Positions 1,972 to 20,942 of a stretch of 42,500 nt of DNA are shown piece by piece; position 1 is the stretch's first letter; each line of letters opens with the position of its first letter. The stretch comes from Chromatiales bacterium (lineage in GTDB: Bacteria > Pseudomonadota > Gammaproteobacteria > CAMYNG01). The DNA is taken from positions 1-42,500 of the forward strand of contig JALTLF010000188.1 in the NCBI GenBank assembly GCA_027005735.1, read 5' to 3'. The notes beneath the pieces are model-generated. The model was given only the letters and a program-made list of their open reading frames with translations, was not told where the DNA came from and searched no databases. The translations under genes and the position numbers were made by a program.

Positions 1972-2607
1972 TCAGCGCAGCTCGATTTTACGCCGCACGC
2001 CGATGCCGTGGTGGGCCACCGTGCCCTGGCTGCGATCGACGATACGGATCGGCAGGCTGGGTTCGGGACAGACCTCGACACACAGGCCACAACCCACGCA
2101 GCCCTTCTGCACCACCGGCCGGTAGAAGTTGCCGAACTCGAAGTCGATGGCCGAGGAACCCAGGGGACAGATCCCCACGCAAGCACCGCACACACCGGCA
2201 TCCACCCACGGATAACAGGCGACCCGATCGATCTGCGCCGTCCCCATATCCACCTCGCGGATGGGTGTCTCGGTCAGGGCCTCCGTGGGGCAGACCTCCA
2301 TGCACAGGCCGCACAGGATACAGGCCCGGTCTTCCGGGTTGATGTAGGGCGTGTTGACGCCGCCGGCGCCATCGTTGCGATGAAATTTCACCGCCTTCAC
2401 GGGACAGATCTCGCCGCACAGGCCACAGCCGATGCACGCCCCCCGGAAGGCGTCGGGATCCGGCAGGGAGCCGGGCAGGGGCACGCGGCGATGGGGATCC
2501 GCCTTTACCTCCGGCGCCAGCAGGCGCGCCAGTCCGAAGGGCAGCGCGGAGAAACCCGCCACGCCGGCAAAGAAGGCCAGCTTCTGCATGAAGGTGCGCC
2601 GTTTCAT
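1972..2607 (-). CDS. NapG/NapF-like ferredoxin-type protein
   Basis: TAT-like N-terminus (MKRRTFMQKLAFFAG) and several 4Fe-4S motifs (CIGCGLCGEICPVKA, CILCGLCMEVCP, CGACVGICP, CVGCGLCVEVCP). Confidence 0.8.
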   Translation of the reverse strand: MKRRTFMQKLAFFAGVAGFSALPFGLARLLAPEVKADPHRRVPLPGSLPDPDAFRGACIGCGLCGEICPVKAVKFHRNDGAGGVNTPYINPEDRACILCGLCMEVCPTEALTETPIREVDMGTAQIDRVACYPWVDAGVCGACVGICPLGSSAIDFEFGNFYRPVVQKGCVGCGLCVEVCPEPSLPIRIVDRSQGTVAHHGIGVRRKIELR

Positions 2608-3614
2608 GCCGCCTCGCCTGGATCGCTGTGGGCATCCGCCTGCCTGTTTTCCTGCCGCCGGCGGTATTCATGGCCGAGATGCCCCGGCCCCTGGAAGGGC
2701 TGGTCCTTGAAAGCGACCCTGAAGGTAAGTGCATCGGTGGGGCACACGGCAATACAGGCGGTGCAGTTGTTGCATTCCTGGCCAAAGCCGTCACGCAGGG
2801 GATCGAGACCGAACTGGCAGACCACATTACACTTGGCGCAGTCGTTGCACTGGCCCACCTTGCGCTGGATACGCAGGAGGCGGAAGCGGCCGAGCAGGGA
2901 GTACAGCGCCCCGCCCGGACAGACGTAACGGCAAAAGCCACGCCGCGTGACCATCAGATCGAAGGCCAGGGTCAGTATGAAAAACACAATACCGGCACCG
3001 AAGCCCCCCACGGCGATGGCATAATAGATCTCGCGACCAATGATCGCCGGCGGATAGACGGCGGCAAAGACCATGGTACCGCTGATGGCCGCGATGATGG
3101 TTCCCGCGGCCAGCACCAGGTACTTGAGCCGGCGATCCAGCTTGCGCCGACTCACCGGCAAGCCGGCCTTGCGCAACCAGGCGGCGAGGTTGTCGTGCAA
3201 CTCGTAGATGAGCGTCGCCGGGCAGATCCAGCCGCAGTACACGCGTCCCAGCACGAGCGTCACGGCGATGGGAATGAGCGCCGTGAGCAGGAAGGGCCAG
3301 TAGATGGTCAGGCCGGCGGCGGACTGACCCACCACCGCCAGCGGATCGCTGAGCTTGAGGCCGAACAGGGTCCCGGACCAGGTGGTGCCCTTGAGCGCAT
3401 TCAGATCGGTCACCGGATCGCTGACGAAGGGTGCCGTCAGGCGCTCCATGGCATCATAGATGGCCTTTTCATCCGGCGCGAGCAGGTCGTAGGCATGTGC
3501 CGCTTCATAGGTCTGGTAGAGATGCAGAAAGGGCAACAGGATGAGCATCAGGAAGACGATGCTCAGTGAAACCCACCGCAGCTTGTTGATGTGGCGTTGC
3601 CAGGTACGGCGCAT
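2604..3614 (-). CDS. napH: NapH-like quinol-dehydrogenase membrane ferredoxin
   Basis: Multi-TM protein with GWICPATLIYEL and FCRYVCPGGALYSLLG plus two C-terminal 4Fe-4S motifs (CNDCAKCNVVC, CNNCTACIAVCPTDAL). Confidence 0.8.
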   Translation of the reverse strand: MRRTWQRHINKLRWVSLSIVFLMLILLPFLHLYQTYEAAHAYDLLAPDEKAIYDAMERLTAPFVSDPVTDLNALKGTTWSGTLFGLKLSDPLAVVGQSAAGLTIYWPFLLTALIPIAVTLVLGRVYCGWICPATLIYELHDNLAAWLRKAGLPVSRRKLDRRLKYLVLAAGTIIAAISGTMVFAAVYPPAIIGREIYYAIAVGGFGAGIVFFILTLAFDLMVTRRGFCRYVCPGGALYSLLGRFRLLRIQRKVGQCNDCAKCNVVCQFGLDPLRDGFGQECNNCTACIAVCPTDALTFRVAFKDQPFQGPGHLGHEYRRRQENRQADAHSDPGEAA

Positions 3615-3617
3615 GTG

Positions 3618-4199
3618 TCAGACAACCTTGCGTTGGTGATCGGGGATGATGCGGATGGCCTGCGGGATCTGGATGCAGGAACGCTCGCACAGACCACAAC
3701 CGACACAGGCATCGAGCACGTGGGGCTGCTCGAGCCTGCCCACACGGATGGCGACGTCCTGCAGCGGGCAGGCGCGATAACAGACACCGCAGGTCTTTCC
3801 CTGCCAGGACAGGCAGATGGTTCGGTCCACCCGCGCGCGGCCCATGCGTACATTCTGCATGATGGCCTCGGCCTCGCGTTCGATTGGCTGCAGGGCGCCC
3901 GTGGGACAGGCCTCGCCACACTTCATGCACAGGATACAGGCCTGCTCTCTCGGCACGATATAGGGCGTATCCAGCGAGGCGAGGCCGTTTTCGAACCGGA
4001 AAAACTTGATTGCCCGGTTGGGGCACACCTCGCCACACTTGCCGCAACGAATGCAGCGACTAAGGTAGTCGTCTTCCGGCAGGGCGCCGGGCGGCCGCAG
4101 AAAACGCACCGATACCCGCGGCGTCGCCCGGGCATGTAAGGGCGCCGCGGCCCCCACCGCACCGGCAATCAGCGTGTAGAGAAAATTCCGGCGCTGCAT
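3618..4199 (-). CDS. napG: NapG-like periplasmic ferredoxin
   Basis: TAT-like signal MQRRNFLYTLIAGAVGAAAPLHARA and four Cys motifs (CIRCGKCGEVCP, CILCMKCGEACP, CGVCYRACP, CVGCGLCERSC). Confidence 0.75.
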   Translation of the reverse strand: MQRRNFLYTLIAGAVGAAAPLHARATPRVSVRFLRPPGALPEDDYLSRCIRCGKCGEVCPNRAIKFFRFENGLASLDTPYIVPREQACILCMKCGEACPTGALQPIEREAEAIMQNVRMGRARVDRTICLSWQGKTCGVCYRACPLQDVAIRVGRLEQPHVLDACVGCGLCERSCIQIPQAIRIIPDHQRKVV

Positions 4200-4283
4200 G
4201 AGCTCACCCCGTGTGCGCGATCCATCGGCACGAAGCGGCGCCCTGCCGGCGGCCTTGCGCCACTTCGTGCCATGCCTTCATTA

Positions 4284-6983
4284 TCAGACTTTCTCGATAC
4301 GCGCGGCCAGCTTCTTGAAGTCCACCTGACCGGATACCAGATCCCACACGCGGCTCGAGGTGCTGTTGACCAGCCAGCGGTTCTTCTTCGGATCCGCCGA
4401 GTCGGCCACCGACAGGTTCCATGGGCTGAACATGTAGCCACGCGGAACCACGTTGCGCGCCGGCTTGACCAGGCTGTTGGTGCCCACCTGCGCCCTGGCC
4501 TCGAAGGAACCGCGCCGTGTCACCAGGCGCACCTTGTCGCCGTCCTTTATACCGAGGTCTTTGGCGTCTTCCGGGTGGATCTCCACGTACATCTCCGGCA
4601 CCAGCCGCCGCGTGGTGGGACTGCGGTTGGACTTGGCGGTATGGAAGTGCTCGTAGACCACGCCCAGGCCGAGCCAGTAGGGGTAACTGTCCTTGGGCAC
4701 CTCGTTCCAGGGCTTGCCGCGATGCGCCTCGTCGGGCAGATCCGGCGTCAGACCCATGTCCCGCGCCTGCTTGAGCAGGGGAATATTGTCGATGGTATAG
4801 ACACCCTCGCGGTGACCGAATTCCATCAGCTTGCGGGTGATCTCTTCGCGCCGGGAATAATCCTGCTGAACAAACTTCATGTGCACCTTGCCGTCCCGGG
4901 TGCGGAAATAACCGTAGGGGCGGTTCTCCCACCGGCCTTCCTGCATCATGTACCGTCGCTTGGTACCGCCCTTTTTGGCGATCTCATAGGTCGGCGCAGG
5001 CCACTGGATACCCCGGAGATCACGCAGCTGCTGATAGAGTGGCTTGCCATCCAGTTTTTCCACCTCCAGCATGCCCGTGAGATCGGTATCCGTGCCCGCC
5101 GAGGCCTCGACCACGGCGCGGAAGATCTCCTCGGCATCGTAGAAACCGTCCTCCTTGCGCTTCCATGGGAAGATGCGCTCGGCATCTAGCCCCAGCAGCT
5201 TCGCAATGGCGCGTCCCTTGTCGATGACCATGTCGAGGTCCGGGCGGCAACCGGGAGGCGGCTCGGCAGCCTTCTCCACGCGGTTGATGCGGCGCTCGGA
5301 GCTGATATAGACGCCATCCACTTCTCCCCAGGTGGCTGCCGGGAAGATAACGTCGGCATAGAGGTTGTTCGGCGCATGGCGATAGATCTCCTGCACCACG
5401 TTGAAGGTCTTCATCAGGGCCGGCCGCACCAGATTATCCTGATCAGGCAGGTCGATGTGGGTGGCATAGACGAAGAAGAAGGCCTTGACATCGTCCTTCA
5501 AGGCCCGCTCCATCATGCCAATCGCCATGCCCGGATTCTTGGAGTTCATGGCCTTGACCAGGTTGGCTTCGGGCACGTTCCACTGCTTCGCCATCCACTT
5601 GCGATGCTTTGCGTTCTTCAGCGGCATGTTGAAGGGCAGGCGTCCGGTGAGGCCGCCGGTGAAACGCTCACCCATGGCATTTGGCTGGCCGGTCATGGAG
5701 AAGGGCCCGCAACCCGGCTTGGCGAGGTTGCCGGTGAGGGTCAGCAGGTTGATGATGGCAATGACGTTGTTCTGCCCATGGATGTGCTGGTTGTATCCGA
5801 TGCCCCACATGATGATGACGCCGCCATAACCCTTGCCCTCGTGCTTGCCCTTGCTGCGTGCCAGGCGCTTGCGCGTGGCGTCGGCAAACATGCCGGCCAC
5901 CCGGCGGATCAGCTCGGGCGAGACATCATGGTTGGGCCCGCCCATGCGGTCCTGCACCTGCTCGGGGCTATAGTCCCGGAGAACACCCTCGGTATATTCC
6001 TTCCAGCCGGTGGTGTGGGCCTTGAGGAACTTCCAGTCGATGACGTCGGGGTGCTCCTTCAGCAGGACATGCGCAATACTGTTGAGGAAGCTGATGTCGC
6101 CGTTGAGGATCGGGACGTGCACCGAGTTGTCGGGATTGATGTCGGCGTAGCCCTTGGCGGTTCCGGTATAGCGGGGATCCACCACCACGGTGGGGATGTT
6201 GGCCTTGCGCTTGTAATCGGCGGCACGCCAGAAGATGATGGGGTGCGACTCGCGGGCATTGTGTCCGAAGTGCATGATCATGTCGCACAACTCGATGTCT
6301 TCATAGGCCAGGGGCGGCGTGTCCGAACCCAGGGTGGCGAAGTAACCCGTCACCGCCGAGGTCATGCACATGCGGGCATTGGCCTCGATGGTGTTGGAGC
6401 TCAACACGCCCTTCATGAACAGGTTCTCGAGGTACTGGCCTTCCATGGTGAGCTGGCCGGACCCGTACAGGCCGATGGAATTGCCGCCGTACTTTTTCGC
6501 CAGGTGGGCGATCTTGTGTGCCACCATTTCCTCGGCCTCTTCGTAAGGCACGCGCACGAAGTGTTCCTCGTCGAAGGAACCCTTGGTCTTGCTGACATAT
6601 TCCAGGTCGCCGTGGCCGGGCTTCTTCCATTCTTCCCACACGTCCTTGCGTACGTAGGGATCGCCCTCCATGCGGTCGACATAGATGGGCTCCGCGGCGG
6701 TCAGGCCCTTGATGCACTGCAGGCCATAGTTGGTGGGATGATCGCGGTCCGGGCGCATGGAGACGATCTTGCCGTTCTCCACCTGGATGATGGTGCCGCA
6801 GCCCACGCCGCAATACGGGCACTGGGCAATGGCGGTGGTGCGCTTGCCATGCGCTGGCGCCTCCGCGGGCGCGGCTTCCAGTTCGGGATTGGCGCCGACC
6901 ATGAGACTGGTGCCTGCCGCCGATCCGGTGATGAAGCTGCTGGTTTTCAGAAAATCCCTTCGGTTCATCTTGATGCGTTTCAT
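4284..6983 (-). CDS. napA: Periplasmic NapA-like molybdopterin oxidoreductase catalytic subunit
   Basis: 899 aa; TAT signal (MNRRDFLKTSSFITGSAAG), N-terminal 4Fe-4S motif CPYCGVGCGT...QCIKG, putative Mo-ligand Cys in NARMCMTSAVTGY, C-terminal molybdopterin dinucleotide-binding domain (EIHPEDAKDLGIKDGDKVRLVTRRG). Substrate not determined. Confidence 0.8.
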   Translation of the reverse strand: MKRIKMNRRDFLKTSSFITGSAAGTSLMVGANPELEAAPAEAPAHGKRTTAIAQCPYCGVGCGTIIQVENGKIVSMRPDRDHPTNYGLQCIKGLTAAEPIYVDRMEGDPYVRKDVWEEWKKPGHGDLEYVSKTKGSFDEEHFVRVPYEEAEEMVAHKIAHLAKKYGGNSIGLYGSGQLTMEGQYLENLFMKGVLSSNTIEANARMCMTSAVTGYFATLGSDTPPLAYEDIELCDMIMHFGHNARESHPIIFWRAADYKRKANIPTVVVDPRYTGTAKGYADINPDNSVHVPILNGDISFLNSIAHVLLKEHPDVIDWKFLKAHTTGWKEYTEGVLRDYSPEQVQDRMGGPNHDVSPELIRRVAGMFADATRKRLARSKGKHEGKGYGGVIIMWGIGYNQHIHGQNNVIAIINLLTLTGNLAKPGCGPFSMTGQPNAMGERFTGGLTGRLPFNMPLKNAKHRKWMAKQWNVPEANLVKAMNSKNPGMAIGMMERALKDDVKAFFFVYATHIDLPDQDNLVRPALMKTFNVVQEIYRHAPNNLYADVIFPAATWGEVDGVYISSERRINRVEKAAEPPPGCRPDLDMVIDKGRAIAKLLGLDAERIFPWKRKEDGFYDAEEIFRAVVEASAGTDTDLTGMLEVEKLDGKPLYQQLRDLRGIQWPAPTYEIAKKGGTKRRYMMQEGRWENRPYGYFRTRDGKVHMKFVQQDYSRREEITRKLMEFGHREGVYTIDNIPLLKQARDMGLTPDLPDEAHRGKPWNEVPKDSYPYWLGLGVVYEHFHTAKSNRSPTTRRLVPEMYVEIHPEDAKDLGIKDGDKVRLVTRRGSFEARAQVGTNSLVKPARNVVPRGYMFSPWNLSVADSADPKKNRWLVNSTSSRVWDLVSGQVDFKKLAARIEKV

Positions 6984-7004
6984 TTTGCTGTCTCCTGAAA
7001 ACGG

Positions 7005-7721
7005 TTAGTTCTTGCTCGGAACGGTACGCAGATAGGCAATGATGTCGTCGATTTCGCTCTCCGACAGGTTTGCCATGGCATCAGGACCGCTGAAACCCAG
7101 CATGCGCGTGTTGGAGCGTCCTTTCCTGATGGTCTCGCGAATGAAACCGTCGGTGGCCTTGGACAGGAAGCCCTCCTTGCCAATCGCGGTGCCCGTGCCC
7201 CCGGCCACATAGCCATCACCGTTCTCGCCGTGGCAGGTGGAACAGATCTGGTCGAACCAGAACTTGCCCAGACGGGGGTCGCCGTGGGATTCGGGCTCGG
7301 CGTCCACCTCGGCGGATCGATCCGGCAGCGTGGCATGGGAGCGCAGGAAGGCAACGATGGCCTCGATGTTCTTGCGGCCGAGGTGGGCGAAGGGCGGCAT
7401 GCCCGTGCCGGGCCGCCCGTCACGGATGGTCGCCAGCAGGAAACGGTCACTGGAGATGGACAGCAGCTCCGGGTTGGTCAGCGAGGGCGCAAAGCCGGGC
7501 TTGCCGATGCCGTCCGCCTGGTGGCAGAAAACGCAGTTCTGGTTGTAGAGGTCCTTGCCCTGCGCCGCAAGGGCCGGGTCGACCCTGGGGGGCGGCCCGG
7601 CGGGAACCGCGGCGGGCGCGGCCGCCTCTTTTTTGGGGGGTGCTTCGGATTCCTGCTGACAGGCACTGAGTATCAGTGCAAGGCCGGCAAGTAGTAACAG
7701 GGTAAACGCTGTTCTGGCCAC
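7005..7721 (-). CDS. Diheme c-type cytochrome lipoprotein
   Basis: Two CXXCH motifs (CVFCH, CSTCH), lipobox-like LALILSAC, two cytochrome c domains. Confidence 0.85.
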   Translation of the reverse strand: MARTAFTLLLLAGLALILSACQQESEAPPKKEAAAPAAVPAGPPPRVDPALAAQGKDLYNQNCVFCHQADGIGKPGFAPSLTNPELLSISSDRFLLATIRDGRPGTGMPPFAHLGRKNIEAIVAFLRSHATLPDRSAEVDAEPESHGDPRLGKFWFDQICSTCHGENGDGYVAGGTGTAIGKEGFLSKATDGFIRETIRKGRSNTRMLGFSGPDAMANLSESEIDDIIAYLRTVPSKN

Positions 7722-8511: not shown

Positions 8512-8686
8512 CCGGCTTTGCCGAGTTCGGCGGCAAGTCCAACACCGTACAGTGGTAGCATTGCGCGCCCGTTATGCAGTCATCGGACGTGCCGTGGTGT
8601 CTGGCACATGTGATGTAACGCTCAAAAACCAAAACAGGTTTCCATTGTACGGAACCATTGACCCGAGGTGAGTGTGGAGGCATTGC

Positions 8687-9604
8687 ATGAGTAGTGTGCC
8701 TGTTGACAACGTTCTGGATACCTCCGCCGAGGGATCTTCGCGCCGCCCCCGACTACCCGTAGTTTCCGCAATACTGGGCAGCCGAGTGGCATGGATGACG
8801 ATGCTCACGGTATTCCTCATCGTCTGGGGCTGGCTCAACCGTGACAACAGTTACATAACAGCCGAGGAAGGCACCGGCTACTGGCTGGGGATCCTTGGCG
8901 GTTCGGCCATGTTGTTGCTACTGCTCTATCCCTTGCGCAAGAAGGCGCGTTTCATGCGGAACTGGGGGCCCGTGGGTTACTGGTTTGGCGCCCACATGTT
9001 TCTCGGGGTCGCCGGTCCGCTGATGATCCTCTACCACGCCAACTTCTCCACCGGTTCACTCAACAGCAATATTGCCCTGTTCAGCATGCTGCTGGTTGCC
9101 GGCAGCGGTGTGATCGGGCGCTTTCTCTATGGCCGCATCCACATGGGTATGTCAGGGCACAAGGCCACCATGGCGCAGTTGCGTGAAGAGATGCAGATAT
9201 CGCGGGGCAGGCTCAATGGCCGCTTTACCCTGTCGAAGAAAATCCTCAAAAAAATCCGCAAGTATGAAAAGCGCATGTTGCGCCCTCACATCCCTGTTCT
9301 GGGACTGTTCAGCCTGGGCTACCACGGCTTCTGCTCACTGAGCACCTACCTGAGTATTACCCACCAGTTGCACAGGAGCCTGCGTCAACAGGCACGAAAG
9401 CATGACTGGGACCGCCGCATGCGCAAGGCGCTGTTACGCGAATCCAGCCAGGCCATGCGTGAATACATCCGTGCCGTACGCCGCGCGGGGGAATTCCAGA
9501 TCTATGAACGCTTCTTCGCCCTGTGGAATCTCCTGCACCTGCCGCTTTTCCTGCTGCTAATGATTACGGGAACTGTTCATGTCATTGCCGTGCACATGTA
9601 TTGA
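8687..9604 (+). CDS. Multi-TM membrane protein, possible b-heme membrane electron carrier
   Basis: TM helices with histidines (GAHMFLG, LYHANFS, LLHLPLFLLLMITGTVHVIAVHMY); first gene of the cytochrome cluster. Confidence 0.55.
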   Translation: MSSVPVDNVLDTSAEGSSRRPRLPVVSAILGSRVAWMTMLTVFLIVWGWLNRDNSYITAEEGTGYWLGILGGSAMLLLLLYPLRKKARFMRNWGPVGYWFGAHMFLGVAGPLMILYHANFSTGSLNSNIALFSMLLVAGSGVIGRFLYGRIHMGMSGHKATMAQLREEMQISRGRLNGRFTLSKKILKKIRKYEKRMLRPHIPVLGLFSLGYHGFCSLSTYLSITHQLHRSLRQQARKHDWDRRMRKALLRESSQAMREYIRAVRRAGEFQIYERFFALWNLLHLPLFLLLMITGTVHVIAVHMY

Positions 9605-9624
9605 CAGGGATACACGCATTGACG

Positions 9625-11202
9625 ATGCATGCCTGGAAACGAAATCTTCTGCTTGGGGGAATGCTGCTCATGTTATGTAGTACTGCCAGCGCCGATCCCT
9701 TCGAATCCCTGCTCATGCCGGGCCCCCTGGTCGAAGGACATGCGGATCTCGAGGACGACTGTGACAACTGCCACCGCTCATTCAGCGATGCCACAGAGGA
9801 AACGCGCCTGTGCCTGGAGTGTCACGATGACATCCGTGCCGACGTACTCAAGCGGCGCGGCTTTCACGGCCGCTCCCGCCAGGTGAGAAAGCAGGCCTGC
9901 CGCAGTTGCCACACCGAACACCAGGGACGTGATGCGGACATAATCAAGTTCAATCCCGCCACCTTCGATCACCACCTGACCGACTTCCCCCTGCGTGGTC
10001 GGCATGCCCGCGAGGCCTGCGGGAACTGCCACAAGAAAGGCAAGAAGTACCGCGCCGCACCGGCCAGCTGCCTTGCCTGCCACAAGGAGGTCAACCCCCA
10101 TCGCAGCGAGCGCCTCGGCAAGCGCGCCAGGAAATGCCAGGTCTGTCACAGGGAGGATGGATGGAGTCGAATCGACTTCGATCACTCGGTAACGGATTTC
10201 CGCCTCACCGGCAAGCACAGGAAAACCGACTGCGCGAGCTGTCACCCCAATGACCGCTATGCAAAAACGCCTCAAGACTGCTACTCCTGCCATCGCCTCA
10301 ACGATGCGCATGCCGGGGGTAACGGCAAGAAGTGCGAAAAATGTCATTCCACACGCGCCTGGGACGACCTCGACTTCAACCACGACACGGAGACAGACTT
10401 CCCGTTGCGCGACGGCCACGACGGGCTCGCCTGTCAACGCTGCCACAAGAAGGATCCCTACAAGGTGAAGCTGAAGACGGCCTGCATTAGCTGCCACCGC
10501 GCGGACGACGTGCACAAGGGCCGTAACGGCAGAAAATGCCAGGAATGCCATACCGCCAAGGGATGGAAAGACTCGCGTTTCGACCATGGCAAGGAAACCG
10601 ACTTCCCGCTTCGCGGCAAACACAAGGGTCTAAAGTGCATCACCTGTCACAAGCGCAACCCGAAAGAGCATGAAACGGACATGGCCTGCATCAGTTGCCA
10701 TCGCGCCGATGATGTGCACAAGGGACAGCAGGGCAAGCAGTGCCAGCGCTGCCACAACGAGGCGGGCTGGCAGGTACGCGTGCGTTTCGATCACGATCTC
10801 ACGCGTTTCCCGCTACTGGGTCTGCACGCGGTAACCCCTTGTGAGGAATGTCACCTTGGGGGCACGTATCGTGATGCGGAGATGCGGTGCAATAGCTGCC
10901 ATCAAGAGGACGATGAGCACCGTGGCCGTCTCGGGACCGATTGCGAGCGCTGCCACACACCGAACTCCTGGGAACTTTGGAAGTTTAATCACAATACACA
11001 GTCGCGATTCAGGCTACGGCACAAGCATGCAAAACAGCACTGCTATGCCTGCCACCGCCGCAAGGTAGAGAAGGTGGACTCGGTGCCAAGACCGTGTGAA
11101 TCGTGCCATGCCGCGGACGACGTACACAATGGTCAGTTTGGCAGCGATTGTGCTCGCTGCCATACGACACGTTCTTTCAAGGATGTAAATCTACGACGTT
11201 GA
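9625..11202 (+). CDS. Periplasmic multiheme c-type cytochrome with 21 CXXCH motifs
   Basis: Manual count of 21 CXXCH in 525 aa. Signal peptide MHAWKRNLLLGGMLLMLCSTASA without a proper lipobox. Repeating FDH..TDFPLRG.H....C..CH...C.SCH..DD.HKG..G..C..CH...GW module. Confidence 0.92.
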   Translation: MHAWKRNLLLGGMLLMLCSTASADPFESLLMPGPLVEGHADLEDDCDNCHRSFSDATEETRLCLECHDDIRADVLKRRGFHGRSRQVRKQACRSCHTEHQGRDADIIKFNPATFDHHLTDFPLRGRHAREACGNCHKKGKKYRAAPASCLACHKEVNPHRSERLGKRARKCQVCHREDGWSRIDFDHSVTDFRLTGKHRKTDCASCHPNDRYAKTPQDCYSCHRLNDAHAGGNGKKCEKCHSTRAWDDLDFNHDTETDFPLRDGHDGLACQRCHKKDPYKVKLKTACISCHRADDVHKGRNGRKCQECHTAKGWKDSRFDHGKETDFPLRGKHKGLKCITCHKRNPKEHETDMACISCHRADDVHKGQQGKQCQRCHNEAGWQVRVRFDHDLTRFPLLGLHAVTPCEECHLGGTYRDAEMRCNSCHQEDDEHRGRLGTDCERCHTPNSWELWKFNHNTQSRFRLRHKHAKQHCYACHRRKVEKVDSVPRPCESCHAADDVHNGQFGSDCARCHTTRSFKDVNLRR

Positions 11203-11240
11203 TATTGACAACTTCTTCGATAACGAGGTGAGACTGACTC

Positions 11241-12566
11241 ATGGACAAGAATCACAATACAAGGCCAGGCTGGCTGCTTCTGCTGATGGCTTCCCTGCTG
11301 CTGGCATGCAGCTCGGCTACGGCAGCCACGGTACCGCAGGAAGGCTTCGACCACGACACCACGGGGTTCATCCTCTCCGGCGAACATACCCGCCTGTCCT
11401 GTGAGTCCTGCCACCAGCGTGGCATTTTCAAGGGCGTTCCCAAGACCTGCCAGGGCTGCCATGCCCAGGGTGGGCCCATGCCCGCCTCGGCCAAACCCTC
11501 AAACCATATCCCCAGCGGGGCTGCCTGTGATGATTGCCACCTGGAGACCAGCTGGGCTACGGCTCGTGTCGATCATGTCTCGGTTACCGGCACCTGCGAG
11601 TCCTGCCACAATGGGCGCATGGCGAGCGGCAAGCCATCTGGCCACATCCAGAGCAACAATGTCTGTGACGATTGCCATACCACCCGCAACTGGGCCGGCG
11701 CGCGCTTCGACCATAGTTCTGTCTCGGGCAACTGCATGCGCTGTCACAATGGTATTACCGCCACCGGCAAGCCGAACAACCATGTGCAAACAGGCAGTGA
11801 CTGTGCCGTCTGCCATCGCACCACTGGCTGGCTGCCGGCGGGCTTCGATCACGCCGGCATCACCAGTGGTTGCGCCAACTGCCACAATGGCGCTACCGCC
11901 ACCGGGAAGCCGGCCAACCATATCCAGAGTAACAATGCCTGCGAAAACTGTCATCGCACCACCGCCTGGGTGCCAGCCACCGGGTTTGATCACAGCGGCA
12001 TTACCACAGGCTGTTACACCTGCCACAACGGCGCCACCGCCACCGGCAAACCGCCGACGCATATTGCCAGCAGCAATGTGTGCGAGGATTGCCACCGTAC
12101 GGCGGGCTGGATTCCGGCCAGCTTCGACCACAGTAATGCGGGCAACAATTGCAACAGTTGCCACAATGGTTCCACGGCGACCGGCAAGACGCCAAATCAC
12201 TTTGTAACCACCCTGCAGTGCAGCGCGTGCCATACCACCACGGCATGGCTACCGGTACGCTACACCCACACCTCTATGAACTATCCGGGTGATCACCGCA
12301 GTGTCCGTAACTGTCTGGGCTGCCACACGACCAATTCGGAAAACATCCCTTGGCCGTTCGCGGCATACAAGCCTTTCTGCGCGGGCTGCCATGCCAACAG
12401 CTACGATGCCGGCGAACACAAAAAGGTTGATAATCCGCGGATCCTCTATACCGTGGGCGAACTCAAGGACTGCTCGGGCGCCTGTCACACTTACACCGAC
12501 AGCACGCTGACCAATATCCTCAAGCGGCGCTCCGGTCAACACCGGGTCACGGATGGAGGCTGGTAG
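11241..12566 (+). CDS. Lipoprotein multiheme c-type cytochrome, 15 CXXCH plus one CX3CH
   Basis: Manual count of 15 CXXCH plus CSGACH near the C-terminus. Lipobox LLLAC. About five tandem 46-aa diheme repeats (FDH.SIT.GC..CHNG.TATGKP.NHI.S.N.CE.CHRT..W.PA). Confidence 0.92.
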   Translation: MDKNHNTRPGWLLLLMASLLLACSSATAATVPQEGFDHDTTGFILSGEHTRLSCESCHQRGIFKGVPKTCQGCHAQGGPMPASAKPSNHIPSGAACDDCHLETSWATARVDHVSVTGTCESCHNGRMASGKPSGHIQSNNVCDDCHTTRNWAGARFDHSSVSGNCMRCHNGITATGKPNNHVQTGSDCAVCHRTTGWLPAGFDHAGITSGCANCHNGATATGKPANHIQSNNACENCHRTTAWVPATGFDHSGITTGCYTCHNGATATGKPPTHIASSNVCEDCHRTAGWIPASFDHSNAGNNCNSCHNGSTATGKTPNHFVTTLQCSACHTTTAWLPVRYTHTSMNYPGDHRSVRNCLGCHTTNSENIPWPFAAYKPFCAGCHANSYDAGEHKKVDNPRILYTVGELKDCSGACHTYTDSTLTNILKRRSGQHRVTDGGW

Positions 12567-12573
12567 CCGCAAT

Positions 12574-12595
12574 GGCGGGGTGGCAACACCCCGCC
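12574..12595 (+). other. Perfect stem-loop between the cytochrome gene and the AMIN-like gene
   Basis: GGCGGGGTG-GCAA-CACCCCGCC: 9-bp perfect stem with a GCAA tetraloop and no following T-tract. Confidence 0.6.
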
Positions 12596-12669
12596 CAGCT
12601 ACCTTCCCCCGAGGTGTATGCCTTTCGTGATGCAGGCCGATGCTGTTCCGTCATATTGAATTAAAGACG

Positions 12670-13212
12670 ATGTCGGCAAACCGCAAGCAGGGTATCCTGC
12701 CCTTCCTGCTTTGCCTGTTCACGGGAGTGATGCCCTTTCTGCTTCCCTCGCCCACTCCTGCCGGTCCGGTAACAGGCATCGTCTTCGATACGGTGAGCTG
12801 GGAACGCAATGTAGATCATTACCGCATCCGTATAGGCTTCAACTATCCCGTGCAATACATCCTGCATTACCCCCCCAGCCCACGCGATGAGGTCGTGGTG
12901 CAGATACGCCTGCTGGAAGCCAACGCCCTGGAGGGACGCCTGCCGGTGATAGAAGAAAGCGCGGCACTGGATGCCATGATGAAACGTCTTTTTGAAGATC
13001 TCCGTTTCGAGGGCAGTGTCCCGGAGACACCCCTTGTCATCCTGCGCTTTACCCACCCGCAGCATTTCCGCATCGAGCAGGGTGGCGACTGGCGCAGTAT
13101 CGTGCTCTACCTGTTCGATGAACCACGCTGGAGCGATGTGGCGCCACCGGAAGCCGAGATCATTGACGAGAACGGCGGTCATACCCAGGGCGGGGATGAG
13201 GTTCGCCCATGA
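12670..13212 (+). CDS. Exported AMIN-domain-like protein
   Basis: Signal peptide and beta-rich domain (GIVFDTVSWERNVDHYRIRIGFNYPVQYILHYP...FRIEQGGDWRSIVLYLFDEP). Overlaps the next gene by ATGA. Resembles the N-terminal domain of the next protein. Confidence 0.6.
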   Translation: MSANRKQGILPFLLCLFTGVMPFLLPSPTPAGPVTGIVFDTVSWERNVDHYRIRIGFNYPVQYILHYPPSPRDEVVVQIRLLEANALEGRLPVIEESAALDAMMKRLFEDLRFEGSVPETPLVILRFTHPQHFRIEQGGDWRSIVLYLFDEPRWSDVAPPEAEIIDENGGHTQGGDEVRP

Positions 13213-15752
13213 TAAGACCATATCGAGTTCATGTGTCACACTGGCTGTGGCATGGGCTGGTTCATGTCGCCATAGTGGCTACACTGATTTCGTGGGCCCA
13301 CGGCGTGCATGCCGCCAACCGATTCATGGAAAAGCTGGATATCTCCACGTCGAACGGCGATGCCGTGCTGACGTTGCATTTATCCGAGCCAGTCACCTAC
13401 CTGCGGCATTTCCCGGCCAGGCAGGGCAAGCTGGTTGAAGTCACGGTGCGACTGGCCACGCCTGGTGCAACGCGTGAAGTTGAAAGCGAGTCCCTGGGTG
13501 GCCCCGCGAGCGCTACCATCCCCCTGCGCGAGGTTGAAGCCACATCCATCGATCCCAATACACTAAACATTACCTTCCGCTTTACCCGCAATGCACACTT
13601 CGCCGTTTCCCGCGGTGGAGACGGAAATACAATCATCATCCGCCTTTTCAACCCTCGACGCAGTGGCATTACCGGCCCCGATACCGTCATCCGCCCAAGC
13701 TGGGGAGCGATAGTCAACACCTATACGATCAACCTGCAATCCTCGGTAACACCCTTCAAGGAACGTCCAAGTGCGCGCCGCGACATCCTCGATGTCTTCA
13801 AGCTCTACAAGATGCGGGTACGCATCAAGGGTACCGTCTGGTATCGCTACCGCCTCGGTTTCTTCGCCACCCGTGCCCAGGCCGAACGGGTCCGCAAGCT
13901 TCTCCTCAAGGACTACCCCGACGCCTGGATCGACCTGCTGCACCCCAGCGAACACGCCCTGGCGGAACGCTGGTTCTCGGTTCACCGGAAGCCGCCGAAG
14001 ATCGCCCTGGAGCCAGTACCACAGGCAGCCCCCAGGCCGCCCACACCGGCAAGCCCAGCGCCCAGGGCGCCGCCCAAACGCCCCGCGAAACCGGCAAAGC
14101 CCGCCACGCCATCTGCGCCACCACGTCCCCTGCCGAGTACCAGGTCCGGGCGCCTCATGGAACTGGCGCGCCAGGCCATGATCGACGGCAACTATCGACG
14201 TGCCACCAAACTCTACACCAAGGTACTGCAGCGCCCGGAAAAGGCCTTCCATCAGGATGCACTGGAATTCCTCGGCCTGGCACGCGAACGCAATGGGCAG
14301 ATCGCCCATGCCAAGGCGGAGTATCGCAACTACCTGAAACTGTACCCCGACGGCGAAGGCGCCATTCGTGTACGCCAGCGCCTCGATGGGATTATCACGG
14401 CGCGCAAGGATCCCCGCACGCCGCTGGCCAGGCCCAGTGAACGGGCCGAGGAGGCCCGCTGGGATATGTTCGCCAGCCTGGCCCAATTCTACCGCTACCA
14501 GACCACGTCGACTGATGCGGCGGGCAGCCAGGCCGTCGACAATTCCGTCGACTCCGACATCCTTTTCTCTGCCCGGCGGCGTACCGAGACCTGGGATATC
14601 CGCACCCTCTTCGCCGGCAGCCACCGCTATGATTTCATTGACGATCGTGATCCGGGCGATGGACGCGTCACTTCCCTGTATGCGGACTTCCGCAACCGTG
14701 TGGAGGACTATTCCATCCGCATCGGGCGCCAGACCCACAGCGCCAACGGTGTGCTCGGACGTTTCGACGGCATCCTCGGCAGTTATCGCCTCAACAGCCA
14801 GGTCAAGCTCAACGTCGTGGCTGGCTACCCGGTGGAGTTGACCTCATCGGATGGGGTCAACACCGACCGCCAGTTTTTCGGCGCCAGCACCGATCTTTCC
14901 GGCCATATCGACAACGTCGATCTCAATGTATTCTTCATCCACCAGACCATCGACGGCATGGTGGATCGCCAGGCCATTGGTGCCGAAGCCCGCTACAATG
15001 ACCCCAACGGGCGTAACGCCTTCGCGCTCATCGACTACGATACGCACTTTGGCCAGATCAATACCCTGATGTTCGTTGGCACCATGATCTTCGAGGGTAA
15101 TCGCCTGCTCAATCTGGTGGTGGACTACCGTAACAGCCCCGTACTCACCACCTACAATGCCCTGCAGGGCCAGACGGTTGCCACTATTGCCGAGTTACGC
15201 CAGACCCTGAGCGAGGCCGAGATAGAACAGCTGGCACGGGATCGCACCGCGCGCTTCAAGTCCATCACCCTTTCCGGTTCCCTGCCCCTGACCCCGAAGT
15301 TCCAGTTCAACGGTAGTGTTACTGTTTCCAGTCTTTCGGGGACGCCGGCCTCCGGTGGTGTCGCCGCCACCAGCCCCAGCGGCACCGAATACGCCCTGTT
15401 TGCACAATTGCTGGGTAACAACTGGCTGTTCGAAAAAGATGTCAGTTCCGTGGGGCTACGCTGGGCCGATGCCGCCACCGCCACGCGCACTACGCTGTCC
15501 TTCAGTACACGCTTCCCGCTGAACAAGGAATGGCGTATCAATCCCCGCTTCCAGCTGGAGAAAGTCAGCGGTAGCGATGGCTCGAGCTCGACCCTGATCC
15601 GCCCCTCCTTGCGCGCCGATTTCCGCTTCCGACGCAACATACGTTTCGAATTCGAGGGAGGTGTGGATCTGACGCAGCGTGATATTGCCGGTGGCAGTGA
15701 CGACGAAACCAGCTATTTCATCCGTGCCGGCTATGTCTACGATTTCCTGTAG
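13209..15752 (+). CDS. AMIN-like / SPOR-like / TPR / outer-membrane beta-barrel fusion protein
   Basis: 847 aa. N-terminal AMIN-like domain, SPOR-like YRYRLGFFATRAQAERVRKLLLKDYPDAWID, Pro/Ala-rich linker, TPR-like helices, then about 430 C-terminal residues of alternating amphipathic strands ending YFIRAGYVYDFL. Confidence 0.75.
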   Translation: MIRPYRVHVSHWLWHGLVHVAIVATLISWAHGVHAANRFMEKLDISTSNGDAVLTLHLSEPVTYLRHFPARQGKLVEVTVRLATPGATREVESESLGGPASATIPLREVEATSIDPNTLNITFRFTRNAHFAVSRGGDGNTIIIRLFNPRRSGITGPDTVIRPSWGAIVNTYTINLQSSVTPFKERPSARRDILDVFKLYKMRVRIKGTVWYRYRLGFFATRAQAERVRKLLLKDYPDAWIDLLHPSEHALAERWFSVHRKPPKIALEPVPQAAPRPPTPASPAPRAPPKRPAKPAKPATPSAPPRPLPSTRSGRLMELARQAMIDGNYRRATKLYTKVLQRPEKAFHQDALEFLGLARERNGQIAHAKAEYRNYLKLYPDGEGAIRVRQRLDGIITARKDPRTPLARPSERAEEARWDMFASLAQFYRYQTTSTDAAGSQAVDNSVDSDILFSARRRTETWDIRTLFAGSHRYDFIDDRDPGDGRVTSLYADFRNRVEDYSIRIGRQTHSANGVLGRFDGILGSYRLNSQVKLNVVAGYPVELTSSDGVNTDRQFFGASTDLSGHIDNVDLNVFFIHQTIDGMVDRQAIGAEARYNDPNGRNAFALIDYDTHFGQINTLMFVGTMIFEGNRLLNLVVDYRNSPVLTTYNALQGQTVATIAELRQTLSEAEIEQLARDRTARFKSITLSGSLPLTPKFQFNGSVTVSSLSGTPASGGVAATSPSGTEYALFAQLLGNNWLFEKDVSSVGLRWADAATATRTTLSFSTRFPLNKEWRINPRFQLEKVSGSDGSSSTLIRPSLRADFRFRRNIRFEFEGGVDLTQRDIAGGSDDETSYFIRAGYVYDFL

Positions 15753-15859: not shown

Positions 15860-17869
15860 TCAGAAGATGCCGAAAAAACCACCCTCGTCGGCCTTCTCGA
15901 TGAGTTCCACGATCTTCCCATGACCTGCACTCTTTGCCACGCTGAGCGCACTTTGCCGATCACCGTTACGAATACGCACGTTGGCGCCCTTGTTCAATAA
16001 CAATTCCACGGTGGCAGCGTGACCGCTGCGCGCAGCGAGGATCAGGGCCGTATTGCCGAATCGATCACGCGCATCAATGTCGGCGCCGTGTCCAAGCAGT
16101 ACGGCCACGGTGGAGGTATGGCCCGCATCGGCAGCCAGTAGCAGCGGCGTGTTGCCGGATCTGTCACCGCCCTCCACTGCCGCACCATGCTTCAGAAGGA
16201 GATCAACCACCTTGTCGAAACCCAGCGCCGCAGCGCGGCCCAGCAATGTATATCCGGCACTGTCACGCCCATGGAGATCCGCACCCTGCGTGATCAGATA
16301 GGAGGCCGCCCGGGGATGACCCTGGGTGACGGCGAACCACAGGGCACCTGCGCCGTCGCGGTTGCTGTAGTCGATGGGAATATGGCGCGGCGTCAACGAG
16401 CGCACCACTTCAAGGTGACCTTCGCGGGCCGCCCACAGCAGGGCATTCATGCCATCCTTCTGTCTACGACCAGGCTTCGCCCCGGCGGCCAACAGGCGAC
16501 GCAGGCACGCGATATGGCCATGACGGGCCGCCAGCATGACAGCATCCATGCCGTCCTTGCGCTGAAGCCCGTGCCGGGCGCCCTTCTGGAGGAGTTGCGT
16601 GACGATCTTCTCGTGGCCGCCGCGCGCCGCCCACATGAGGGCGGTCATTCCCTCACGATTGGCGATATTGACCGCCGCACCCCGTTTTAACAGGGCGGCG
16701 ACGATTTTCTCATGGCCCTTCATGGCGGCACGCATGAGGGCCGTATGGCCGTCGGGATCGCGGGCATCGATCCTGGCGCCACGCTGCAACAAGGGCCCCA
16801 CAGCCGCTGTCTGGCCACGCCATGCGGCCACCATCAACGGCGTCCAGCCCGCATAAGCCGCATCGCGGGCAATGGCCTCCGCGCCCGCCGAGGCCGTGGC
16901 CACATCGACACCGTCGGTAAAGGGTTCAGGCTCGGGTGGCCTGCGCGCCCCGGCCGCAAGCAGGGCACGCGCGACCTTCGTGTGCCTGCGGCCCTCGGCC
17001 AGCTGGTAGGCCGTTCGCCCCTCGCGATCAGTCGCATCGAGTGCCACCTTGTGACGGATCAACGCCTTCACGGCATCCAGTTTGCCGCTGCGTGCTGCCC
17101 ACATCAGTGCGGTATAGCCCAGCTTGTCCTTGAGATTTTTTTTCGCGCCACGCGCCAGCAGCAAGCGTACTACGGCAGCACGTCCTTCCCCAGCTGCCAG
17201 CATGAGGGCCGTCTCTCCGGCACGGTTACGGTGATTGAGCTTTGCGCCCCGAGCGCGCAGGTGATCCACCACCTTCACGTGCCCCCCTTCCGCCGCCAGC
17301 ATGAGGGGGGAGTTCCCATCTTCGTCGAGGGTATCGACGGGGATACCTCGCGCCAGCAGGGCCTTGACTTCGGGCAGGTCACCACGCCGCGCGGCGGTCA
17401 ACAGGGCCTCGCGCGGATGCTCGGTGCCGCGCGGCGTAACGCCCTGCTGCTTCAGTTTTGCCAGGCGCCTTGCGGCGCGTCGATGTCCCTGTGCCGCGGC
17501 CTTGCGAAACCAGGCCATGGCACGTGCGGGATCGCGTCCCACGCCCACGCCGTTCAGGTACATCATGCCAAGGCTGTACTGGGCGCGATCCAGGCCGCGC
17601 TTTGCCGCCTCGCCGAACCAGTAGAGGGCCTTTTTATAGTCCTGTGGCGTCCCCTGCCCGTTGCGGTAGAGCACGGCAAGCTGATACTGGGCCTCGGCCC
17701 TGCCCTTCTTCGCCAGCGGTTGCAGCAGGCGCAGGGCACGCGGATAGTCGCGCAGGCGCAGGGCCTGCTCGGCGTCCTCGAGCTTTCCCGCGTATACCGG
17801 CGCGGCAACGACCAGCATCAGGATGAACAGGATCCAGCGCTGGTGGCAAGCTGGAGAGGAAGTATACAT
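15860..17869 (-). CDS. Exported Sel1-repeat plus ankyrin-repeat protein
   Basis: Signal peptide (ILFILMLVVAAPVYA), Sel1 repeats (AEAQYQLAVLYRNGQGTPQDYKKALYWFGEAAKRG), then many ANK repeats (GHTALMRAAMKGHEKIVAALLKRGA). Confidence 0.88.
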   Translation of the reverse strand: MYTSSPACHQRWILFILMLVVAAPVYAGKLEDAEQALRLRDYPRALRLLQPLAKKGRAEAQYQLAVLYRNGQGTPQDYKKALYWFGEAAKRGLDRAQYSLGMMYLNGVGVGRDPARAMAWFRKAAAQGHRRAARRLAKLKQQGVTPRGTEHPREALLTAARRGDLPEVKALLARGIPVDTLDEDGNSPLMLAAEGGHVKVVDHLRARGAKLNHRNRAGETALMLAAGEGRAAVVRLLLARGAKKNLKDKLGYTALMWAARSGKLDAVKALIRHKVALDATDREGRTAYQLAEGRRHTKVARALLAAGARRPPEPEPFTDGVDVATASAGAEAIARDAAYAGWTPLMVAAWRGQTAAVGPLLQRGARIDARDPDGHTALMRAAMKGHEKIVAALLKRGAAVNIANREGMTALMWAARGGHEKIVTQLLQKGARHGLQRKDGMDAVMLAARHGHIACLRRLLAAGAKPGRRQKDGMNALLWAAREGHLEVVRSLTPRHIPIDYSNRDGAGALWFAVTQGHPRAASYLITQGADLHGRDSAGYTLLGRAAALGFDKVVDLLLKHGAAVEGGDRSGNTPLLLAADAGHTSTVAVLLGHGADIDARDRFGNTALILAARSGHAATVELLLNKGANVRIRNGDRQSALSVAKSAGHGKIVELIEKADEGGFFGIF

Positions 17870-17870
17870 T

Positions 17871-19178
17871 TCAGGCAGTTCCGTGCTTGGTTTCCACTTC
17901 GATACCGATCTTCTTCAGGAAGGGCGTGGGCAGGATGCCGCCGGCACAGACGATCATGGCGTCATTGGGAATGGTGATCAACTTGCCCTCCACGTCGATG
18001 TCCACCTCCCTTTCACGGATCTCCTTGACGTTGGAATTCATCAATACCTGCAGGCGACCGGCCTCTGCCGCCGCCTCAACCTTGTCGCGGTTCTTCGCCT
18101 TGGCGCGGCTAAACGAGGCACTGCGGTAGGAAATGGTCACCGTGGTACCGGGTTCCTCCGCGATGCTGGTGGCCGCCTCAAGTGCGCTGTCGCCACCCCC
18201 CACCACCAGGACGTGCTGGTTGCGGTACTGTTCCGGGTCGATGAGGTTGTAGACCACCTTGGGGACATCCTCGCCCGGCACGCCCAGTTTACGCGGCGTG
18301 CCGCGTCGGCCGATGGCCAGCAGGACGCAACCGGCGGTGTATTCGCCCTTCGTCGTGACGACGCGGAAGAAGCCGTCTTCGCGCTGGATATCGTCCATTT
18401 TCTCACCGTAGTGGATTTTAACGCCGGTGCGCTTCTCCACTTCCTGCCAGAACTTCAACAGAGTTTCCTTGCGTGTCTCGCGAAACTTGACCTTGCCAAT
18501 AATGGGCAGTTTTACCGGCGCGGTCATGACCAGCTTGCCACGCGGAAACTTGAACACCGTACCGCCCAGTGAGTCCTGCTCGACGGTGCGGTAACGCAGT
18601 TTCTTCTCGTGCGCCCCGAGGGAAGCGGAAAATCCGGCCGGACCCGCCCCAATGATGATGATGTCGTACTCGCCCTGGTGCTTCGTGCCGGCGAGTTTTT
18701 TCGCTATCGCCTCCATGGCCTGGCGGCCCTGCTCGACGGCATTGCGGATCAAGCCCATGCCGCCCAGTTCACCGGCAATGAACAGGCCTGGGATATTGGT
18801 CTCGAAATTCGTGTCCACGTGCGGGATATCCACGCCGCGCTTCGCGGTACCGAAGACCAGTGTAATGGCCTTGAAGGGACAGGCGCGGGCACAGGCGCCA
18901 TGACCGATACATTTGGTCGGCTCGATGAGCTGTGCCTTGCCGTTCACCAGGCCAAGGATGGTGCCCTCGGGACAGGCGGTCACGCACGCGGCGCAACCCA
19001 CGCACTGACTGTCATCGATACTCGGGTGCAGGGAGGCCGGTTCCGTCAGGCCCGCTTCCCTGGCTTCCTCGAGTACCGCGACATTGCGCTTTTCCTTGCG
19101 CTTGACGTAGATGTAGTAGCCGCCGATGAGGAGCAGCGGCATGAGCATATACAAGCTTGTAACTAGACCCAGTTTCAT
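17871..19178 (-). CDS. Membrane-anchored ferredoxin-domain FAD/NAD(P)-dependent oxidoreductase
   Basis: N-terminal TM (LGLVTSLYMLMPLLLIGGYYIYV), ferredoxin motifs CVGCAACVTACP and CIGHGACARACP, dinucleotide motifs (IIIIGAGPAGFSASLGA; VLVVGGGDSALEAA), GIEVETKHG C-terminus. Confidence 0.85.
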   Translation of the reverse strand: MKLGLVTSLYMLMPLLLIGGYYIYVKRKEKRNVAVLEEAREAGLTEPASLHPSIDDSQCVGCAACVTACPEGTILGLVNGKAQLIEPTKCIGHGACARACPFKAITLVFGTAKRGVDIPHVDTNFETNIPGLFIAGELGGMGLIRNAVEQGRQAMEAIAKKLAGTKHQGEYDIIIIGAGPAGFSASLGAHEKKLRYRTVEQDSLGGTVFKFPRGKLVMTAPVKLPIIGKVKFRETRKETLLKFWQEVEKRTGVKIHYGEKMDDIQREDGFFRVVTTKGEYTAGCVLLAIGRRGTPRKLGVPGEDVPKVVYNLIDPEQYRNQHVLVVGGGDSALEAATSIAEEPGTTVTISYRSASFSRAKAKNRDKVEAAAEAGRLQVLMNSNVKEIREREVDIDVEGKLITIPNDAMIVCAGGILPTPFLKKIGIEVETKHGTA

Positions 19179-19448: not shown

Positions 19449-20942
19449 GTGAGCGAGCACTTCACCACCCTGTTTACCCTGCTGCAGTATCTCACTTACC
19501 TGTTCGTCTTTATCGTCGGCCTGGGCGTGCTGTGGATCCTCGTCCTCTACGTGATGGACGTGACCCAGAAGCGCAACGCCATCCTGCGCAACTACCCGGT
19601 GGTGGGCCACTTCCGCTACCTGTTTCAGACCCTGGGCAAGTTCTTTCGCCAGTATTTCTTCGCCATGGATCGCGAGGAACTGCCCTTCAACCGCGCCGAG
19701 CGCAACTGGGTCTACCGTGCCTCGCAGAACCAACCCAACACCGCGGCCTTCGGTTCCACGCGCGACCTGCGCCCGCCGGGAACCATCCTGTTCGTCAACT
19801 GCCCCTGGCCCACCCTGGACAAGGACGCCACGCCCACCGCGCCGCGTATCATCGGCCCCGACTGTCCCCAGCCCTATACCGCCACCTCCCTGTTCAACAT
19901 CTCCGCCATGAGCTACGGCGCCCTGTCGAAGCCCGCGGTACGCGCCCTCTCGGCGGGTGCGAAGCTGGCGGGCTGCTGGCTCAATACCGGCGAAGGGGGA
20001 CTCTCGCCCTGGCACCTGGAGGGCGGCGGCGACCTCGTCTTCCAGATCGGTACCGCCAAGTACGGCGTGCGCAATGCCGAGGGTGGCCTCGACGACGAAA
20101 AGTTGCGCGCCGTGGCGGCCCACCCCCAGGTACGCATGTTCGAACTCAAGCTCTCGCAGGGCGCCAAGCCCGGCAAGGGCGGCATCCTGCCCGCCGGCAA
20201 GGTCACCCCGGAGGTGGCCGGTATTCGGGGGATCCCGGTGCATACCGCTTCCATCAGCCCCAACCGCCATCCGGAGATCAGCAGTGAGGACGATCTGCTG
20301 GACATGCTCAACCACATCCGCGAGGTCACCGGCAAGCCGGTGGGCTTCAAGGCCGTCCTCGGCGCATGGGGCTGGCTGGACAGCCTGTTCGAGGCCATCA
20401 ACCGCCGTGGCGCCGACAGCGCGCCGGACTTCATTACCATCGACTCTGCCGACGGCGGTTCGGGCGCGGCCCCGGCGAGCCTGATGGACTACATGGGTCT
20501 GCCCCTGCGCGAGAGCCTGCCCCTGGTCATCAACAAGCTGGGGGAATACGGCCTGCGCGCGCGCATCCGGGTGATTGCCTCGGGGCGGCTGGTGACCCCC
20601 GGTGACGTGGCCTGGGCCCTGTGCGTGGGAGCGGATTTCATCAATTCCGCCAGGGGATTTATGCTGGCGCTGGGCTGCATCCAGGCCATGCAGTGCAACC
20701 GCAACACCTGTCCCACGGGGATCACCACCCATAATCCCCGCCTGCAGAAGGGCCTCAACCCCGCCGACAAGGCCGTGCGCGTGAAACAGTACGTGGAGAA
20801 CATGCGCCACTCGGTGGGCGTCATCGCCCATTCCTGCGGCGTCCACGAACCGCGCCAGTTGCGCCGTTTCCACGCCCGCATGGTGACCGAAAACGGCCAG
20901 TCGAAGCCCCTCGACGAGATCTACGGCCCGGACGTGGAATAA
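19449..20942 (+). CDS. FMN-binding glutamate synthase family protein (GltB central-domain-like)
   Basis: ISAMSYGALSKPAVRALSAGAKLAGCWLNTGEGGLSPWH; DSADGGSGAAP; C-x5-C-x4-C 3Fe-4S motif CIQAMQCNRNTC-PTGITTHNP. Confidence 0.88.
   Translation: MSEHFTTLFTLLQYLTYLFVFIVGLGVLWILVLYVMDVTQKRNAILRNYPVVGHFRYLFQTLGKFFRQYFFAMDREELPFNRAERNWVYRASQNQPNTAAFGSTRDLRPPGTILFVNCPWPTLDKDATPTAPRIIGPDCPQPYTATSLFNISAMSYGALSKPAVRALSAGAKLAGCWLNTGEGGLSPWHLEGGGDLVFQIGTAKYGVRNAEGGLDDEKLRAVAAHPQVRMFELKLSQGAKPGKGGILPAGKVTPEVAGIRGIPVHTASISPNRHPEISSEDDLLDMLNHIREVTGKPVGFKAVLGAWGWLDSLFEAINRRGADSAPDFITIDSADGGSGAAPASLMDYMGLPLRESLPLVINKLGEYGLRARIRVIASGRLVTPGDVAWALCVGADFINSARGFMLALGCIQAMQCNRNTCPTGITTHNPRLQKGLNPADKAVRVKQYVENMRHSVGVIAHSCGVHEPRQLRRFHARMVTENGQSKPLDEIYGPDVE

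Follow-up and report, generated by a model that had tools for sequence, protein, structure and literature searches.

A 42.5-kb contig from the genome of a Chromatiales bacterium (JALTLF010000188.1; G000:C188), analyzed over its entire length and referred to here as the window, carries a complete PCC3 porin-cytochrome system, as judged from its gene order, a 21-heme periplasmic cytochrome and the motifs of its inner-membrane protein (IMP), all of which are present. The five genes lie at positions 8687–15752 and run in one direction; an open reading frame check found all of them where a preliminary description of this DNA had placed them. That description read the cluster as an unconventional parallel to known electron conduits. 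A route from the inner membrane through the periplasm to the outer membrane is still the best reading and the comparison with PCC3 was apt, but the cluster is an ordinary member of this family, known since 2017, rather than a parallel to it. The five-gene interval also left conserved partner genes outside, at 15860–19178. One of these encodes a membrane-anchored flavoprotein that co-occurs near-obligately with the IMP and is a newly recognized PCC3 partner. We consider it likely that the cluster encodes an envelope-spanning electron conduit, with the co-inherited flavoprotein probably at its cytoplasmic end.

The window cluster is a PCC3 system

PCC3 systems, described in 2017, include an IMP of ~300 amino acids with five transmembrane (TM) helices, an SGXXG motif on TM4, and WX3HX13H motifs on TM3 and TM5. 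Their periplasmic multiheme cytochrome (MHC) has a median of 21 hemes, and the PCC3 range is 22–39 amino acids per heme (He et al., PMC5566968). The first window gene (8687..9604, + strand; ATG after GGAGG) encodes a protein of ~300 amino acids with five TM helices. It contains W104-X3-H108-X13-H122 (WFGAH-X13-H), SGXXG at residues 145–149 (SGVIG), and W285-X3-H289-X13-H303 (WNLLH-X13-H; residues numbered from position 8672). W104, H108, H122, S145, G146, G149, W285, H289, and H303 are invariant among 12 homologs, and all motifs are kept in 78 of 80 named homologs.

The second gene (9625..11202, + strand; ATG at 9625) encodes a periplasmic cytochrome with a type I signal peptide and 21 CXXCH motifs. 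All 21 are invariant among 10 homologs, and exactly 21 are found in 55 of the 67 complete homologs. The third gene (11241..12566, + strand) encodes a second exported cytochrome with 15 CXXCH motifs and one CX3CH motif (CSGACH). Recounting thus returned the heme-motif numbers of the preliminary description for both proteins. The second cytochrome is presumed to be extracellular, at the cell surface; its N-terminal FDHxTTGFxLxGxH sequence and its gene position are conserved. The window cytochromes have 27–29 amino acids per heme. Their CXXCH counts are far above chance, as shuffled proteins contained a mean of 0.33 (periplasmic) or 0.18 (second) such motifs and never more than 3 (2000 shuffles).

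The second cytochrome had been described as a lipoprotein. Its LLAC tetrapeptide is part of the signal peptide's hydrophobic core, with an AxA-like site further downstream. A congener homolog (L026) has no cysteine at this position, and a lipobox-like tetrapeptide is missing from 75 of 83 related cytochromes. The lipoprotein reading is thus unsupported, and we rejected an outer-membrane lipoprotein assignment.

Equivalents of the second cytochrome in other loci contain from 9 to 73 or more CXXCH motifs. Such very high and variable numbers would suit proteins that mainly store electrons (as a capacitor) or buffer redox state and lack a dedicated route outward, and capacitor use has been suggested for Gallionellaceae (pangenome paper, PMC10734462). 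However, the system ends in a conserved IMP on one side and a conserved barrel on the other, which implies transfer through both membranes, and we regard a mainly storage role as improbable. A PCC3 extracellular cytochrome gene in Bradyrhizobium sp. BR13661 (L106, 12436-end) has at least 98 CXXCH motifs and runs off the fetched stretch; the previous largest had 85 hemes (He et al., PMC5566968). Another locus (L035/L058; G040:C126) has MHC genes with 21, 23, 33, 73, and 37 CXXCH motifs between its IMP and barrel genes.

The fourth gene (12640..13212, + strand) encodes a small exported protein paralogous to the barrel protein's N-terminal domain (30% identity to residues 57–161 of the barrel protein, E 6.7e-6). 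The fifth (13209..15752, + strand) encodes an outer-membrane barrel fusion with a signal peptide, a beta-rich exported domain in the AlphaFold2 model (40–147), a SPOR domain (198–259), a TPR region (312–397), and the barrel (418–846). The fusion had been described as carrying AMIN, SPOR, and TPR modules and the small protein as AMIN-like. SPOR is borne out (Pfam E 1.8e-5), as is TPR through weak matches, but neither protein matches Pfam AMIN at E≤0.1. The barrel itself is predicted by AlphaFold2 with confidence (22 strands, pLDDT mostly above 85), in agreement with the preliminary assignment. A conserved 37-residue loop (644–680) connects strands 13 and 14 and, from strand parity, would be extracellular.

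The expected association of barrel and cytochromes across genomes was also seen: of 21 intact loci that carry the IMP and MHCs, 20 also have the barrel gene. This bears on whether the barrel might be an export porin (for polysaccharide, for example), as the TPR-barrel proteins PgaA and BcsC are, rather than a cytochrome sheath. The TPR-barrel architecture is consistent with export, AlgE (alginate export) and other generic barrels are among the best fold matches, and the barrel has no sequence relation to MtrB/PioB, members of which are also missing from the genome. The fold matches are nevertheless scattered over many unrelated barrels with TM-scores of 0.16–0.29 over the query, and so pick no function. 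With 22 predicted strands and the company of IMP and MHCs also weighing against it, we judge a dedicated export porin very improbable.

The window gene order (IMP, periplasmic MHC, extracellular MHC, porin) is that of Slit_1446–1449 in Sideroxydans lithotrophicus and the reverse of Slit_0867–0870. Strain ES-1 of this species was compared through published gene order and motifs, with Bradyrhizobium and betaproteobacterial loci serving as the sequence bridge. Bradyrhizobium is a published PCC3 host (He et al., PMC5566968) and carries the same locus as the window (L098, L106, and L111). Shared features are the gene set, IMP length and motifs, the 21-heme MHC, the low number of amino acids per heme, and a second MHC built from repeats. 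The window differs in the small size of its second MHC, which has 16 hemes compared to a PCC3 median of 34 (Gallionellaceae range 10–35), and in the SPOR/TPR modules of its barrel and the paralogous small exported gene, which He et al. (PMC5566968) do not mention in their text.

Other porin-cytochrome families fit less well. PCC4 systems have a porin and three MHCs, all periplasmic, and lack an extracellular one (He et al., PMC5566968). PCC4 was ruled out, as just one of the two window MHCs is periplasmic and the other is presumed to be extracellular. The cluster resembles MtrCAB, MtoAB, and PioAB in pairing a barrel with periplasmic and outer cytochromes that would work alike, but its periplasmic cytochrome has 21 hemes rather than 10. 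The MtrB barrel has 26 strands, more than the 22 predicted here. We rejected membership in the MtrB/PioB family (no PF11854 match in the barrel or anywhere in the genome) and in the MtrA/DmsE decaheme family (21 hemes; TIGR03508 score of 29.3 bits against a cut-off of 192), in line with the earlier view that no MtrA or MtrB homolog is present.

A flavoprotein is co-inherited with PCC3

Downstream of the barrel gene lie two genes on the opposite strand. One (15860..17869, − strand) encodes an exported Sel1 and ankyrin-repeat protein, a conserved PCC3 neighbor found in 17 of 21 intact named loci (≥20 kb). The other (17871..19178, − strand) encodes the membrane-anchored flavoprotein. Its parts are a TM helix at the N terminus, a pair of ferredoxin motifs (CxxCxxCxxxCP, then CxxHxxCxxxCP, in which His replaces the second Cys), and a YpdA-like FAD/NADPH domain. 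CxxHxxCxxxCP is kept in 64 of 65 homologs, a TrxR-type CxxC disulfide motif is absent, and a K/R-rich stretch follows the TM helix. These features fit a cytoplasmic electron-transfer enzyme.

The closest family to the FAD/NADPH domain is YpdA, a bacillithiol disulfide reductase (PDB 7a7b; relative 7a76). The last FAD-binding segment (TNIPGLFIAGELGG) precedes the GxGxxG motif instead of following it. Placing this segment last yields an alignment with 7a76 over residues 4–317 of the domain (E 3.5e-34), which identifies the domain as circularly permuted. The window flavoprotein further differs from YpdA in carrying the TM helix and both ferredoxin motifs as fused parts, and no NCBIfam equivalog reaches its cut-off on the sequence. 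Beyond the genus, the flavoprotein is conserved at 58–72% identity, compared to 27–43% for the IMP.

We identified a strong IMP match (E≤5e-57) in 41 of 369 Gammaproteobacteria genomes, the flavoprotein in 44, and both in 40 (Fisher p 8e-48, which overstates the number of independent events because the genomes share ancestry). Contigs were scanned with an IMP profile from a 6-row alignment; the barrel sequence and a 12-row IMP alignment gave nothing usable. A single strong-IMP genome (G194) lacks the flavoprotein. Four genomes have the flavoprotein only: G004 is 72% complete and has a PCC3 barrel close by, G102 and G304 have partial matches, and the G143 match is distant. None of the 17 genomes in this sample with just a weak IMP-like match has the flavoprotein, implying a link with PCC3 in particular rather than with membrane proteins of this sort generally. 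Forty IMP copies have the flavoprotein gene no more than 12 kb away on their contig; it is within 1 kb of 32, and divergent and upstream in 31 of these.

The association extends beyond this sample. Among 398 genomes drawn from across the phylum, the identical 6 genomes hold the IMP and the flavoprotein (2 of the 6 are shared with the first sample). Named loci from Alpha-, Beta-, and Gammaproteobacteria include the flavoprotein in 68 of 80 cases and in all 21 with a length of ≥20 kb. Six loci, several of them alphaproteobacterial (L086, L096, L119, L134, L135, and L139), have a co-directional flavoprotein-ankyrin-IMP-21-heme MHC-large MHC-barrel order, an arrangement of the Emcibacter type. The link thus holds across classes and three gene arrangements. 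In the open-access text searched on PCC3 or MHCs (supplements aside), no flavoprotein or ankyrin partner came up, and the words ferredoxin, FAD, and ankyrin do not occur in He et al. (PMC5566968). One single-contig genome has a flavoprotein gene matched as two pieces with an internal TGA (G039:C1:2217460-2219028), which reflects either genuine breakage of the gene or an error in sequencing.

Proposed electron path and direction

AlphaFold2 places helices of the IMP at residues 29–55, 68–82, 101–122, and 130–157, with a final helix ending at 309. The loops at 83–100 and 158–284 contain 33 K/R compared to 9 D/E and are thus probably cytoplasmic; a 120-residue helical insert on this predicted cytoplasmic side could dock the flavoprotein. 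The motifs and histidine spacing make the IMP very probably a two-heme cytochrome b.

Electrons would cross the inner membrane via the four-histidine IMP and pass along the 21-heme cytochrome, which would act as a wire through the periplasm. The 22-strand barrel may let this cytochrome meet, or may partly enclose, the 16-heme cytochrome outside, and the SPOR/TPR modules may anchor the complex to the cell wall. At the cytoplasmic end, the path would run from NADPH to FAD, two iron-sulfur clusters, the b hemes of the IMP, and then the c hemes. NADPH oxidases and the Fre-MsrQ pair have an electron path of this kind. The proposed likeness to these systems and to ferric reductases is that a cytoplasmic NAD(P)H-flavin unit feeds a four-histidine, two-heme membrane protein; sequence and fold do not match, and the window flavoprotein is YpdA/TrxR-type with ferredoxin motifs rather than FNR- or Fre-type.

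Several observations count against this scheme. The IMP has no Pfam match at E≤0.1 (including to the NADPH oxidase/ferric reductase family PF01794), and no PDB sequence match, and a fold search with its model gave nothing significant (best E 0.72, model pLDDT 77), so the case for its putative b-heme binding is the spacing of its histidines. The flavoprotein gene of the window is 8 kb from the IMP gene. A simple NADPH-type motif pattern matched just 39 of 65 flavoproteins, and the enzyme could instead serve a quinone or a soluble partner. The literature surveyed yielded no biochemistry on any PCC3.

With NADPH as the partner, outward electron flow would be downhill and thermodynamically easier, whereas inward transfer from Fe(II) to NADP+ would cost energy. 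Alternatively, the IMP alone might link PCC3 to the quinone pool, with electrons moving mainly inward as Fe(II) or another outside donor is oxidized and the flavoprotein acting as an accessory in, for example, maturation or redox regulation. A quinone-active cytochrome b has been hypothesized for the PCC3 IMP (He et al., PMC5566968). In published expression data, the IMP gene of PCC3 copy 2 in Sideroxydans CL21 is up when cells can oxidize iron, as this alternative would predict. The window host (2.76 Mb genome, 98.7% complete) has both RuBisCO and dsrA, and so is likely, though not proven, to be a sulfur-oxidizing autotroph, which is consistent with lithoautotrophy.

Other data point away from quinone exchange alone. 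In ES-1, expression of both PCC3 clusters is lower with Fe(II)-citrate than with thiosulfate, and the near-perfect, PCC3-specific co-inheritance of a membrane-anchored iron-sulfur flavoprotein exceeds what an accessory would need. In ES-1 mineral proteomes, PCC3 proteins are without clear response in either sense. Taken together, the published expression and protein data do not settle the direction of flow, and we treat the quinone-based account as a serious possibility, if not one that we would expect to prevail.

Neighboring genes

A protein with a glutamate-synthase FMN domain (PF01645) is encoded at 19449–20942 (+ strand), divergent from the flavoprotein gene. An open reading frame occupies the same place in L027 and L028, where the correspondence is one of position, the Pfam identity applying to the window gene. 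The PF01645 protein could be an additional or alternative flavoprotein partner in this lineage. On the other side of the cluster, 2604–7721 (− strand) encodes a molybdopterin enzyme of 899 amino acids, a cytochrome c with two CXXCH motifs, and ferredoxin proteins resembling NapG and NapH. The enzyme is NapA/formate dehydrogenase-like, with scores that fall far short of the cut-offs for NapA and Fdh. The molybdopterin enzyme and cytochrome c also adjoin PCC3 in the congener (L026). In a profile search of genome contigs, the closest named relative locus was that of Gammaproteobacteria isolate HyVt-448.

Implications for PCC3 function

PCC3 features in many genomes as a candidate iron oxidase, a function that is putative. 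The preliminary description compared the cluster with conduits proposed for iron oxidizers; for the window, a link to Fe(II) oxidation is conjectural. We tentatively propose that PCC3 is a six-component, NADPH-linked conduit in which a permuted ferredoxin-flavoprotein feeds or drains a two-heme IMP, wiring cytosolic NADPH to the cell surface. The flavoprotein, co-inherited, usually adjacent, and specific to PCC3, provides a handle on the electron pool, the direction of flow, and the choice of protein to purify first; its gene is also a much better conserved PCC3 marker than the fast-evolving cytochromes. This near-obligate partner makes the question of PCC3 function directly testable. If the proposal is correct, cytosolic NADPH, and not the quinone pool alone, would be wired most easily outward, and Fe(II) oxidation would not be the default role of PCC3.

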